From: Micromonospora tarapacensis
GTDB taxonomy: Bacteria; Actinomycetota; Actinomycetes; Mycobacteriales; Micromonosporaceae
Assembly: GCF_019697375.1 (NCBI RefSeq)
Contig: NZ_JAHCDI010000004.1
Location: 5,319,324 to 5,383,323, forward strand
Direction of reading: 5' to 3'
DNA length: 64,000 nucleotides
Shown here: positions 272-3,930 of the stretch, in pieces
How positions within the stretch are numbered: position 1 is the first letter of the stretch
How the letters are laid out: each line of letters starts with the position of its first letter
Made by a program: the position numbers and the translations under genes
Notes under the pieces: model-generated
The model's input: only the letters and a program-made list of their open reading frames with translations
The model's database searches: none
What the model was told of the DNA's origin: nothing

Positions 272-1227
272 ATGACTGAACGGTTCGTGGTGGTGGGGGC
301 CGGCACGATGGGCCTGGGCATCGCGTACGTGGCCGCCGGCAGCGGTCACGCGGTGGAGTTGGTCGAGGTGGATCGGGAGCGCGGCAGCGCGGCAGTGCGC
401 CGGCTCGCCCAGCTCTGGGAGGGTGCCGTGCAGCGCGGCCGGCTCACCGCCGAGCAGGCCACGGCCAGCCGGGAGCGGGTCGTCCTGCGGTCGGGGCTCG
501 CCGAGGTGGGCCAGGGGCCGGAGGTGATCGTGGAGGCGGTACCGGAACGGCTGGACCTCAAACGCACCGTACTGGCCGAGGCGGAGGCGCTGCGCCCCGA
601 GTTGCTGGGCAGCAACACCTCCAGCATCCCGATCGCCGGCCTCGCCGAGGGGTTGTCACGACCGGAGCGGTTCTGCGGGCTGCACTTCTTCAACCCGGTC
701 TGGGCGATGGCGCTGCTGGAGATCGTGATCGGGCCGGCCACCGCACCGGAGACCACGGACGCGGCGGTCGCGCTCGCCGGCCGGCTGGGCAAGGATCCCG
801 TCCTGGTCCGCGACATGCCGGGCTTCGCCACCTCGCGGCTCGGCGTGACGCTCGGGCTGGAGGCGATCCGGATGGTGGCCGACGGGGTGGCCAGCCCCGC
901 CGACATCGACAAGGCGATGACGCTCGGTTACCGACACCCCGTCGGGCCGCTGGAGCTGACCGATCTGGTGGGTCTGGACGTGCGCCTCGACATCGCCCGC
1001 ACCCTGCGGGCCGCCTACGGGGACCGGTTCGCCCCGCCGCCACTGCTGGTGGATCTGGTCGCGGCGGGACGGCTGGGCAAGAAGTCCGGGCAGGGCTTCT
1101 ACCGGTGGGTCGACGGCGTCCGGTCCGGCGGCACGGAGCCGTTCGAGGTGCCCGGCCGCACCCGGGCAGCCCGACGCCCGGCGGCGGGTCGGGTGGCGCC
1201 GGGTCGGCAGTGGGAGCGGCCCGGTGA
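272..1227 (+). CDS. 3-hydroxyacyl-CoA (3-hydroxybutyryl-CoA) dehydrogenase; 3' end frame uncertain
   Basis: NAD-dependent oxidation of 3-hydroxyacyl-CoA to 3-ketoacyl-CoA. The N-terminal Rossmann domain has GAGTMG at residues 9-14. It is followed by the family's IVEAVPE, SNTSS and GLHFFNPV (catalytic His) motifs, then the C-terminal helical dimer domain from about residue 185 to GKKSGQGFYRW near 280. Homology stops there, as is normal for this roughly 285-residue family, but the frame stays open to 1966 through the next gene. The natural stop would be the TGA at 1225-1227, overlapping the GTG of the hydratase gene (GTGA). Reaching it requires one missing base between about 1115 and 1225. Coupling to an enoyl-CoA hydratase fits beta-oxidation or aromatic degradation. 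Confidence 0.8.
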
Positions 1228-1966
1228 GTGGGGGGCTGCGCGTCGAGGAGCAGCCGGACCGGCTGGTGGTCACGCTGGACCGGCCCGAGAAGCGCAATGC
1301 CATCGACGCCGATCTGATCGCCGCGCTGCACGAGGTCTGCGCCGAGTTGGAGGCACGCCCCCGGATGCTGTTGCTGACCGGCGGCACGGAGGGGATCTTC
1401 GCCGGTGGTGCCGACATCGCCCAGCTTCGCGAGCGGGGACGACTGGACGCACTGGCCGCGATCAACTCGGCCGCCTTCGCCCGGGTCCGGGCGTTGCCGA
1501 TGCCGACCGTGGCGGCCGTCGACGGCCCGGCGCTGGGCGGCGGCGCCGAGTTGGCGTACGCCTGCGATCTTCGGGTCTGCACCGAGCGGGCGGTCTTCGG
1601 CCAGCCGGAGGTACGGCTCGGCATCCTGGCCGGCGCCGGCGCGACCCACCGGCTGCCGGCGCTGGTCGGGAGGCCCGGGCCAAGGAGCTGTTGTTCACCG
1701 GGCGACGGGTGGACGCCGCGGAGGCGCTGCGGGTCGGGCTGGTCAACCGCGTGGTCCCGACCCCGGACGAGCTACTGCCCGCAGCCCACGGACTGATCGA
1801 CGAGATGACCAAGGGGTCGGCGTTGGCGCTGCGGCTGACCAAGCTCGCCGTCGACGCCCCGGCCGCCGCGCACCCGCACCTGGACCTGGTCAGCCAGGCG
1901 GTGCTCTTCACCGACGAGGAGAAACATCGCCGGATGACGGAGTTCCTCCAGCGGCGCGGGCGCTGA
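1224..1966 (+). pseudogene. Enoyl-CoA hydratase/isomerase, single-base frameshift
   Basis: Crotonase family, hydrating 2-enoyl-CoA. The N-terminal frame (GTG at 1224) has RPEKRNAID, the oxyanion-hole region GIFAGGADI and the second oxyanion strand GGGAELAYACDLR. At 1668-1670 (GGG) the frame breaks. The family continues in the frame ending at 1966 with ARAKELLFTGRRVDA, LVNRVVP and a normal C-terminal helix. Restoring one G (GGGG) gives a seamless 247-residue protein reading VGEARAKELL, the usual length. The upstream dehydrogenase overlaps by 4 bases, so the two are probably co-translated. The lesion is the same kind as at seven other sites in this window and is probably not biological. Confidence 0.8.
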
Positions 1967-2027: not shown

Positions 2028-3386
2028 TCAGCCGTCCAGCGCCGCCAGCGGCACGCCGGCGTCGGCGAGCGCCTGGATCACCGCGGCCGACTCACCGAAC
2101 CCGATGATCAGCACGGCGTCGGCACCGAAGTCCTTGATCTGGTTGGCGCCGGCACTGAAGTTGATGGGCGCGGCCTCGGCGTCCTCACCGGGCTCGTAGC
2201 CGAGCAGCTTCACCGTGTCGCTGCCGAAACCGGCCCGCTCCAGCTCGGCCCGGACGACCTCCTGGAGGCCCTCGCCATAGGAGTCCTTCCGAGCCACGAT
2301 CGCGATCTTGTGCGGCCCGTCCCGGAGGATCACGTCGGCCAGCGCCCGACCCTGGAGGCTGTCCGGCGGCGCGGTGCGGAAGTAGAGCCCTTTGTCGTCC
2401 GCCTCGGTCAGGCTCGCGGCCGTGTTCGACGGCGAGAAGAGGATCAGGCCGGCCTTCACCACGTCCTCCAGCACTGCGGCGGAGATCCCGGAGGCGCCGG
2501 CGCCGATGATCACGTGTACCTCGGCACCCACGTGGCGAGCCACGGTCGCCTTGGCCACCGCCGGGCTTGTGCCGTCGTCGCCGTCGATCCAGACCACGTC
2601 CTCGCCGAGCACCCCGCCGGCCGCGTTGATCTCCTTGATCGCCAGCTCGGCGCCGGCGGCCATCGGCGGATAGGCCAGCGCCAGGTCGCCGGTCTTGGGC
2701 AGTAGACCGCCGATGACGAGGGGCGCACCGCTCGCCAGGCCGGTGAAGTTGCCGGACTGCCGCCTGCCCGCCGGTGGCTTCTTGGAGCTGGCCGCGGAGT
2801 CGTCACCGGCGCCGACGAACTCGGTCTTGGCGTCGTTCAGCTGCCGGCCGTCGAAGTGCAGGGTGGCGTAGCTGGCGGTGGCCGGCTCGCCCGCGTCGGT
2901 GAAACCGGCCCGGGTGATCGAGACGCTGCGATACTCGATGTCCGTCCCCTCGCGGGCGAGGCGCAGGCACTGGTTCGCGGTGCTGCAGCGGGTGCCCCCG
3001 TTGGTGACACCGACGATCTGCTTGGCGATGTCCGCCGGATCGGTGCTGCCGGCGAGCTGCGCCGCCAGGGCGCTGATCACCACCGCGTCGTACGACTCGG
3101 CGGCGTAGAGGTAGTCGGTCAGCTTCGAGTCCACCGACCGTAGCCGGTTCTTGAAGCCCTCCGGCAGCGGCGTGAGCGGCGTGGTGCCCTTCATCCCGTC
3201 GACCAGGTTGGCGCGATCCTGCAACTCTTCCGGGTACGAGTTGAGCATGTTGCCATCCGTGCCGTAGAGGCGCACCTGTTGGGCGGTCGCCTCCTCGGGC
3301 TGGTCATCCCCACAGGCGCTGGTGGCGAGCAGGGCCGTGGCGCAGACAGCCAGGATGGCCGTCCGCGAGCCGCGTGACATGTGCAT
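2028..3386 (-). CDS. Branched-chain-type substrate-binding lipoprotein, circularly permuted
   Basis: A secreted lipoprotein of 452 residues. The lipobox LLATSAC puts the lipidated Cys at residue 25, and GGAAGGA precedes the ATG. The fold is a type I periplasmic binding protein (Leu/Ile/Val or amide type), but the segments are in swapped order. Residues 38-178 (VRLYGTDGN, GMKGT, ESYDAVVISALAA, NGGTRC) are what normally forms the C-terminal part of this family. A linker rich in Ser, Lys and Gly (about 179-221) follows. Residues 222-452 (IGGLLPKTGDLA, INAAGGVLGEDV, LYFRTAPPDSLQGR, IGFGESAAVIQALADAGV) are what normally comes first, and the protein stops just where the C-terminal part should begin. 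No permease or ATPase gene is adjacent, so it may act as a sensor or serve a distant transporter. Confidence 0.85.
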   Translation of the reverse strand: MHMSRGSRTAILAVCATALLATSACGDDQPEEATAQQVRLYGTDGNMLNSYPEELQDRANLVDGMKGTTPLTPLPEGFKNRLRSVDSKLTDYLYAAESYDAVVISALAAQLAGSTDPADIAKQIVGVTNGGTRCSTANQCLRLAREGTDIEYRSVSITRAGFTDAGEPATASYATLHFDGRQLNDAKTEFVGAGDDSAASSKKPPAGRRQSGNFTGLASGAPLVIGGLLPKTGDLALAYPPMAAGAELAIKEINAAGGVLGEDVVWIDGDDGTSPAVAKATVARHVGAEVHVIIGAGASGISAAVLEDVVKAGLILFSPSNTAASLTEADDKGLYFRTAPPDSLQGRALADVILRDGPHKIAIVARKDSYGEGLQEVVRAELERAGFGSDTVKLLGYEPGEDAEAAPINFSAGANQIKDFGADAVLIIGFGESAAVIQALADAGVPLAALDG

Positions 3387-3540: not shown

Positions 3541-3930
3541 GTGACCGACTCGCCACAGCAGACGTTCGACGACGCCGCAGCCATTCTCAGCTCGGCGCTC
3601 GACGGGGACTCCGACGCCGTGGCGGGGACCTTCGACGCGGTCGTCGACCGGGCCGGCCTCGTCGGCGCGTACGACGTGGCGTGGTGCCTGGCCGCGACGA
3701 TGGTCGGTGATCCGGTGCCGCCCGGTGCGTGTGCGCTCGAATTTCCCGGCATCGAGCAGGCCGGGTACGACGCCCGGTGGGTGGCCCGCTTCGTCAGCGC
3801 GTACGCCAATGCCGACCTCGACACGGCCCGGGCGCTGTTCGGGGCGGCGGCAGCCGACGGGCGGCTGCCGGAATGCCTGCTCACTCTCGCCGGCTCGACC
3901 GTGGCGACGCTGCGGCACCGGGCCGCCTGA
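3541..3930 (+). CDS. Conserved hypothetical protein, about 129 residues
   Basis: The frame uses typical codons and encodes an acidic, alpha-helical protein (TFDDAAAILSSALDGDSDAV, CALEFPGIEQAGYDARWVARF, TLAGSTVATL). It has no signal peptide, membrane segment or motif I recognise. The frame is open from 3451; I place the start at the GTG at 3541 because the upstream part looks like non-coding sequence in composition. No clear Shine-Dalgarno sequence is visible, so the start is uncertain. It converges on the SRPBCC gene. Confidence 0.55.
   Translation: MTDSPQQTFDDAAAILSSALDGDSDAVAGTFDAVVDRAGLVGAYDVAWCLAATMVGDPVPPGACALEFPGIEQAGYDARWVARFVSAYANADLDTARALFGAAAADGRLPECLLTLAGSTVATLRHRAA

Follow-up and report, generated by a model that had tools for sequence, protein, structure and literature searches.

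A circularly permuted LivJ-type binding lipoprotein conserved in Micromonospora, with similarly permuted proteins in related bacterial groups

A type I binding lipoprotein that is circularly permuted in nature has already been published. TpMglB-2 (Tp0684), the glucose-binding lipoprotein of Treponema pallidum, carries the first three strands of its N-lobe at the C-terminus while the strand order of the C-lobe is unchanged, and the name 'Type Ic / Cluster Bc' was proposed for this natural permutation (PMC4990184). According to the available part of that report, relatives occur in other treponemes and in Gram-positive bacteria, and its authors considered that tethering possibly favoured the topology (PMC4990184). 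Rearranged pieces of a ribose-binding protein have been crystallised as laboratory products, as the accessible part of the report states (PMC9815098), whereas the case described here, from Micromonospora tarapacensis, is natural and conserved.

The Micromonospora protein resembles TpMglB-2, as far as the available description goes, in that both are bilobed, lipid-tethered binding proteins of type I/Cluster B whose chain has been circularly permuted in nature (PMC4990184). The two proteins differ in family, since TpMglB-2 binds glucose (PMC4990184, available part) and the present protein belongs to an amino-acid (LivJ/HAAT) family. By comparison with the description of TpMglB-2, the predicted cut lies in the C-lobe, and the starting strands of the N-lobe together with the first strands of the C-lobe would follow the linker. 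In addition, unlike TpMglB-2 as described in that part of the report, normal and permuted versions occupy the same gene position, and there are two cut sites. A literature search covering titles and the beginnings of abstracts, with subscription papers and preprints outside its scope, found no naturally permuted LivJ-type or actinobacterial binding protein. The protein shares with LivJ, LivK and other Peripla_BP_6 proteins (4n0q, 3ipc, 1z15, 2lbp) the sequence of its N-terminal part (N-part), the predicted fold and the presumed backbone-gripping residues. It differs from LivJ and LivK in its permuted chain and in a lipid anchor that would sit on the other lobe; in Micromonosporaceae, its side-chain pocket is changed as well and no liv permease gene lies next to its own. 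From TpMglB-2, the present family is set apart by its class, its cut, the gene-position evidence and its probable recurrence; that type I binding lipoproteins can be permuted in nature was known. We consider it very probable that the gene encodes a natural, circularly permuted type I (Venus-flytrap) branched-chain/HAAT lipoprotein that most likely feeds liv transporters in other groups and is an orphan in Micromonosporaceae.

Coding frame, chain order and predicted fold

The window, which is the whole stretch of DNA analysed (64,000 nucleotides), contains an open reading frame of 452 amino acids that starts with ATG and is preceded by AGGAAGG 6 nt upstream. The features of this frame and its flank are as follows.

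2028–3386, minus strand: permuted LivJ-type binding lipoprotein, 452 amino acids, stop included in the coordinates (sequence, profile and predicted fold)
3312–3386, minus strand: lipoprotein signal peptide, residues 1–25, ending in TSAC; Cys25 does not vary among the 19 aligned rows
2802–3275, minus strand: C-terminal part of the family domain (C-part), residues 38–195, placed first (alignment, profile and predicted fold)
2724–2801, minus strand: linker, residues 196–221, leading from the family C-terminal tail to the first strand (alignment and predicted fold)
2031–2723, minus strand: N-terminal part of the family domain, residues 222–452, placed last (Peripla_BP_6 positions 2–217)
1979–2017, no strand assigned: strong hairpin (folding energy), between the convergent ends of the binding-protein gene and the upstream plus-strand gene

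The preliminary description assigned the protein a proper signal peptide, and the conserved TSAC cysteine identifies it as one of the lipoprotein type. A permissive lipobox pattern of our own design picked out 96 of the 98 distinct permuted sequences and 78 of the 79 normal ones. A terminator had also been placed directly after the gene. The hairpin at this position is strong (−44.8 kcal/mol, z −5.0) and makes that assignment plausible; however, it has no T run, and a scan with the terminator consensus found nothing at 1979–2017. It is possibly a two-way terminator that lacks a T run.

The Pfam profile Peripla_BP_6 matched residues 223–447 only, at profile positions 2–217 of 343, with 116.2 bits (cut-off 31.7). 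When the two parts were reordered to the family order, the same profile was matched in one stretch over positions 2–310 (125.9 bits), and ANF_receptor was matched over positions 5–328 in one stretch instead of the two obtained as encoded. The first part alone gave a weak Pfam match, below the cut-off (ANF_receptor 228–329, E 0.0083). A sharper control was provided by a custom profile of 361 positions built from 79 normal-order relatives. The protein as encoded scored 221.5 bits against positions 2–218 of this profile, rotation anywhere between residues 194 and 222 raised the match to 341.2 bits over positions 2–357, and residues 38–195 alone gave 124.6 bits at positions 222–357. The best values among scoring shuffles, with 200 shuffles in each control, were 4.4 and 3.6 bits. 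At the level of sequence, this control is decisive for the swapped order.

Pairwise alignment gave the same picture. In G058, a normal-order relative from another family of the taxonomic order, a single frame of 469 amino acids aligned with query residues 221–445 (48%, E 4.9e-50) and next with residues 36–178 (41% identity, E 5.3e-24). The sequence profile places the protein in the Peripla_BP_6 / LivJ-type (HAAT) family, and the best PDB sequence match of the N-part was 4n0q (E 1e-18). The chain does not follow the family order, as the C-part (residues 38–195) precedes the N-part (222–452). The segment order proposed beforehand is thus confirmed by alignments and profile rotation, and the 124.6 bits of the first segment and its alignment to G058 indicate that it is no unrelated domain and that the two halves are opposite ends of one domain.

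A first structure model, based on 19 permuted sequences of which 18 were from Micromonospora, was too weak (pLDDT 64.3) and was replaced. The second AlphaFold model used 136 aligned sequences, including the separated halves of normal-order proteins, which help the fold. It gave one confident fold with a pLDDT of 90.7 and a pTM of 0.88 (88.8–90.7 across five models), in agreement with the earlier expectation that the halves would close into one fold; residues 211–220 of the linker had a mean pLDDT of 59. Structure aligners, which are bound to the order of the chain, mainly matched residues 219–450 to LivJ-like chains; for this reason the structural matches listed were taken up by the N-part, and none of them concerned the C-part. 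The predicted structure is of the type I bilobed fold, with a structural match for residues 219–450 only.

In the proposed arrangement, the chain was opened within the C-lobe, directly ahead of the strand bearing the ligand-binding YxxDGN motif; residues 38–195 correspond to the family domain from this strand (YGTDGN) through the last strands. The linker connects the old C-terminal tail to the old first strand, and the predicted fold is the usual one. The predicted strand order puts the new N-terminus in the C-lobe, and the lipid anchor would therefore hang from the C-lobe instead of the N-lobe. The preliminary description, otherwise supported, needs amending on this point and on docking to a transporter.

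Conservation, distribution and gene neighbourhood

The permuted order was kept in 37 of 37 genomes of the genus, including the source genome itself. Thirty-six of them gave end-to-end alignments in the permuted arrangement; in the remaining one (G014), the gene is split into two overlapping pieces in two frames with the order kept. A sample of 250 genomes of the family holds 63 genomes of the genus, a number also obtained by a search with the neighbouring gene, and all 63 matched end to end in the permuted order. None of the 20 family genomes listed without a match (there were 43 further ones) belonged to the genus. The nearest proteins of the genus were 82–92% identical over the full length, and the best 120 relatives in the protein database covered 93–100% of the query at full or nearly full length.

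These data bear on the possibility that a normal gene was broken or misassembled, with a fragment fused by local rearrangement in this genome. Such an origin could explain why the Pfam match by itself stops at position 217 of 343 and why G014 carries the gene in two frames. However, the order and the full-length identity of the nearest proteins are maintained across the 37 genomes, the lipobox and the backbone-gripping residues are conserved, and the same order is seen outside the family, including in database records named as Geodermatophilaceae. We regard this explanation as having a negligible probability. An assembly error or a pseudogene is ruled out by the conservation in independent genomes. 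The view that this is a gene design and not a simple truncation is upheld by the shared order and the single predicted fold, and the orthologues that were to be checked for the same order have it, which means that it is not local to one genome.

The permutation is wider than could be seen from the window and recurs in a number of related bacterial groups. Because the loci were collected through their similarity to permuted queries, the following counts are not frequencies. In loci up to L212, 204 open reading frames were classified, repeats included: 111 with the C-part before the N-part, 87 in the normal order, 4 with the N-part only and 2 with the C-part only. The distinct sequences among them number 98 for the permuted and 79 for the normal order (177 in total). 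No gene with a doubled C-part, which would represent an intermediate, was present among these 204 frames. Permuted genes are carried by Blastococcus, Geodermatophilus and Modestobacter (MAGs), Planosporangium, Nocardioides donggukensis, N. zeae, actinobacterium LLX17, Acidimicrobiia-type MAGs and groups coded f39, f49 and f41. Among the relatives with the normal order are Planotetraspora, Arthrobacter, Cellulomonas, Aeromicrobium and further Nocardioides. Three genomes (G065, G074 and G139) have a normal and a permuted gene together. A class-wide search matched 151 of 394 genomes; among the matches listed, 11 were end to end and nearly all others were via the N-part only.

The common cut site lies before YxxDGN. 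A second cut, about 22 residues further on, was found at five Acidimicrobiia-type loci (L098, L099, L101, L102 and L111), three of which are titled Acidimicrobiales or Acidimicrobiia. The proteins with the second cut end in ...YGTDGNMGNALGENFDAGK, and their first part begins with GELEGMKGTTP. The stretch between the matched parts, natural tail included, is 19–45 residues long (median 36). A likely origin of the permuted gene would be tandem duplication followed by loss of the outer parts. Tandem pairs of normal-order genes, a kind of duplication that could give rise to a permutation, were observed at L124, L132, L136 and L139. Two metagenomic, Geodermatophilaceae-like sequences (P0136 and P0144) are permuted and, behind the linker, contain the opening segment of the N-part twice; their contigs are 1,610 and 1,544 bases long, and the doubled segments may be artefacts.

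The gene neighbourhood was compared at 24 loci of our own choice, 10 normal and 14 permuted, the latter hand-picked outside Micromonosporaceae from 37 fetched. A series of pyk (pyruvate kinase), an ANTAR response regulator, the binding protein and a convergent livFGMH block recurs, in some loci with other genes in between. The full series was found at 3 of the 10 normal loci (L021, L113 and L119) and at 7 of the 14 permuted loci (L022, L083, L086, L100, L105, L106 and L182). It is not universal: at the normal loci L127 and L137, pyk and the ANTAR gene are on the far side of LivH, and only liv genes are seen at L112, L122, L180 and the Acidimicrobiia-type loci. The liv genes were present at all 24 loci, although L102, at a contig end, shows only livF. 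Pfam confirmed the domain names at L022. Thus, permuted and normal genes hold the same gene position, between the ANTAR regulator and livFGMH, in different actinobacteria. Because of this gene order, the permuted protein most likely feeds the adjacent livFGMH in Geodermatophilaceae, some Nocardioides, the Acidimicrobiia-type MAGs and families f39 and f49. In the LivH of L022 (9665–10900, minus strand), the permease domain is preceded by a CarboxypepD_reg domain at the N-terminus, and the LivH of L021 has a similar sequence as read by eye; the tethered binding protein could dock to this domain outside the cell.

The permuted loci of Micromonosporaceae have no adjacent liv permease or ATPase. 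LivH was found within 13–17 kb at none of 15 such loci, and L172 gave one ATPase match at 30%. A LivH orthologue (E ≤ 1e-50) was present in 57 of the 250 family genomes, none of them of the genus. The normal gene of G065 (L183) adjoins an ANTAR gene and liv genes. With a normal gene beside liv in G065 and no liv neighbours of its own, the permuted gene of Micromonosporaceae is therefore taken to be an orphan paralogue. A changed docking to a transporter, suggested in the preliminary description, is unreadable at this locus because no liv transporter adjoins the gene.

Both versions at one gene position, beside the same transporter genes, offer tests of chain order in folding, docking and transport, and of what the placement of a lipid anchor does. 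Permuted genes are easily overlooked because Pfam reports the N-part only and the database names of the best 120 relatives are silent on order.

A divergent neighbour of about 129 amino acids (window 3541–3927, plus strand) lies beside the permuted gene at 14 of 15 Micromonosporaceae loci; it has no Pfam family above the cut-off. It was found in 209 of the 250 family genomes. It is also present in g51 genomes, three of which (G088, G134 and G266) were checked and have only normal-order genes, whereas G232, of the same genus as the window, carries the permuted gene but not the neighbour. Because each occurs without the other, the adjacency is no evidence of joint function, and a functional link was rejected.

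Evolutionary history of the two chain orders

A tree was calculated from 71 rows, picked for spread from the 177 distinct sequences, to follow the chain orders in family-order alignment; two distant paralogues (L124 and L136) were left out. At least four changes between the orders are required (bootstrap range 4–5), with the caveats that L190 and L122 have long branches and that some rows are of odd composition. A quick tree of 99 rows also gave four changes. A single clade was rejected for all 36 permuted rows (p 4e-151), for the 34 permuted rows with the common cut (p 1.6e-58) and for the 32 permuted rows without the Nocardioides group (p 1.3e-49). Micromonosporaceae and Geodermatophilaceae as one permuted clade were not rejected (p 0.295); this group and the one of 32 rows were chosen after the tree had been seen. 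The trees of the N-half and the C-half alone gave five changes each; they agree on the Nocardioides-type and Geodermatophilaceae groups and differ on others.

If the two halves came from different binding-protein genes, the protein would be a chimera produced by fusion and not a permutation of one gene. Conflicts between the half-trees are what this would produce: two of the tested groups form one clade in the N-half tree and require two changes in the C-half tree, and one tested group shows the reverse, being a clade in the C-half tree only. However, permuted and normal Nocardioides-type proteins form one clade of nine rows in both half-trees, as do the four permuted Nocardioides-type rows and the five Geodermatophilaceae rows. 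Furthermore, compared with normal relatives, the last residues of the window and G051 proteins run straight into the first residues of the other part. A chimeric origin is accordingly very unlikely.

A single permutation, with the nested normal-order proteins being reversions or horizontal replacements, would agree with the clade of Micromonosporaceae and Geodermatophilaceae that was not rejected and with the one cut site common to all permuted groups seen except the Acidimicrobiia type. That type is cut elsewhere, the 36-, 34- and 32-row clades were rejected, and a reversion would be the same rare event backwards; we thus consider a single event unlikely, though less so than a chimera. The clade tests do not separate gains from losses of the permuted order. 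Four gains without reversion fit if Micromonosporaceae and Geodermatophilaceae share one, and fewer gains plus reversions are possible. The most far-reaching interpretation, to which we give somewhat less than even odds, is that permutation occurred independently about four times, with two nearby cuts and in place beside the transporter, and that a permuted copy in Micromonosporaceae then left its transporter and became a stand-alone ligand sensor or an adaptor for another permease. Permutation in place beside the transporter, if true, would suggest selection for an anchor on the other lobe, and independent events, if true, would amount to replicate experiments of evolution.

Ligand pocket and proposed function

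In the alignment to E. coli LivJ, Ser79, Thr102 and Tyr150 were unchanged and position 226 was Asp in all 71 rows. We take position 226 to be a ligand contact and these four residues to grip the backbone of the amino acid through its amino and carboxyl groups. The contacts of isoleucine obtained by docking are Ser79, Thr102, Tyr150, Tyr18, Leu77, Cys78 and Ala100, according to the available part of a sensor paper (PMC6983066). LivJ positions 18, 77, 78 and 100 read L, A, S and A in the 50 rows outside the permuted Micromonosporaceae (48 of 50 at position 78), and normal-order Micromonosporaceae rows are among these 50. In the 21 permuted Micromonosporaceae rows, 20, 18, 19 and 21 differ at the respective positions, and the window protein, with A, G, A and S, differs at all four. 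The residues that grip the backbone are kept and the side-chain pocket is mostly changed; therefore, judging from these residues, the Micromonospora protein most likely holds an amino-acid backbone with a different side chain, and the ligand in Micromonosporaceae would be a different amino-acid-like compound.

The orphan paralogue of Micromonosporaceae would pass this ligand to an unlinked permease or report it. PF02653, a permease family that also covers sugar permeases, is matched 24 times in the source genome, and an unlinked partner is therefore possible. Feeding of an unlinked HAAT-type permease seems slightly more likely than not. A role as a ligand sensor is the less probable alternative.

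In the window, a frame of 564 amino acids (272–1966, plus strand) contains complete 3-hydroxyacyl-CoA dehydrogenase domains and, of the enoyl-CoA hydratase profile, positions 147–230 of 251 only. The start of the hydratase, as judged by eye, is in another frame (1224–1796), and the hydratase gene therefore appears to be frameshifted in the window. At L170, the corresponding genes are two separate overlapping frames.
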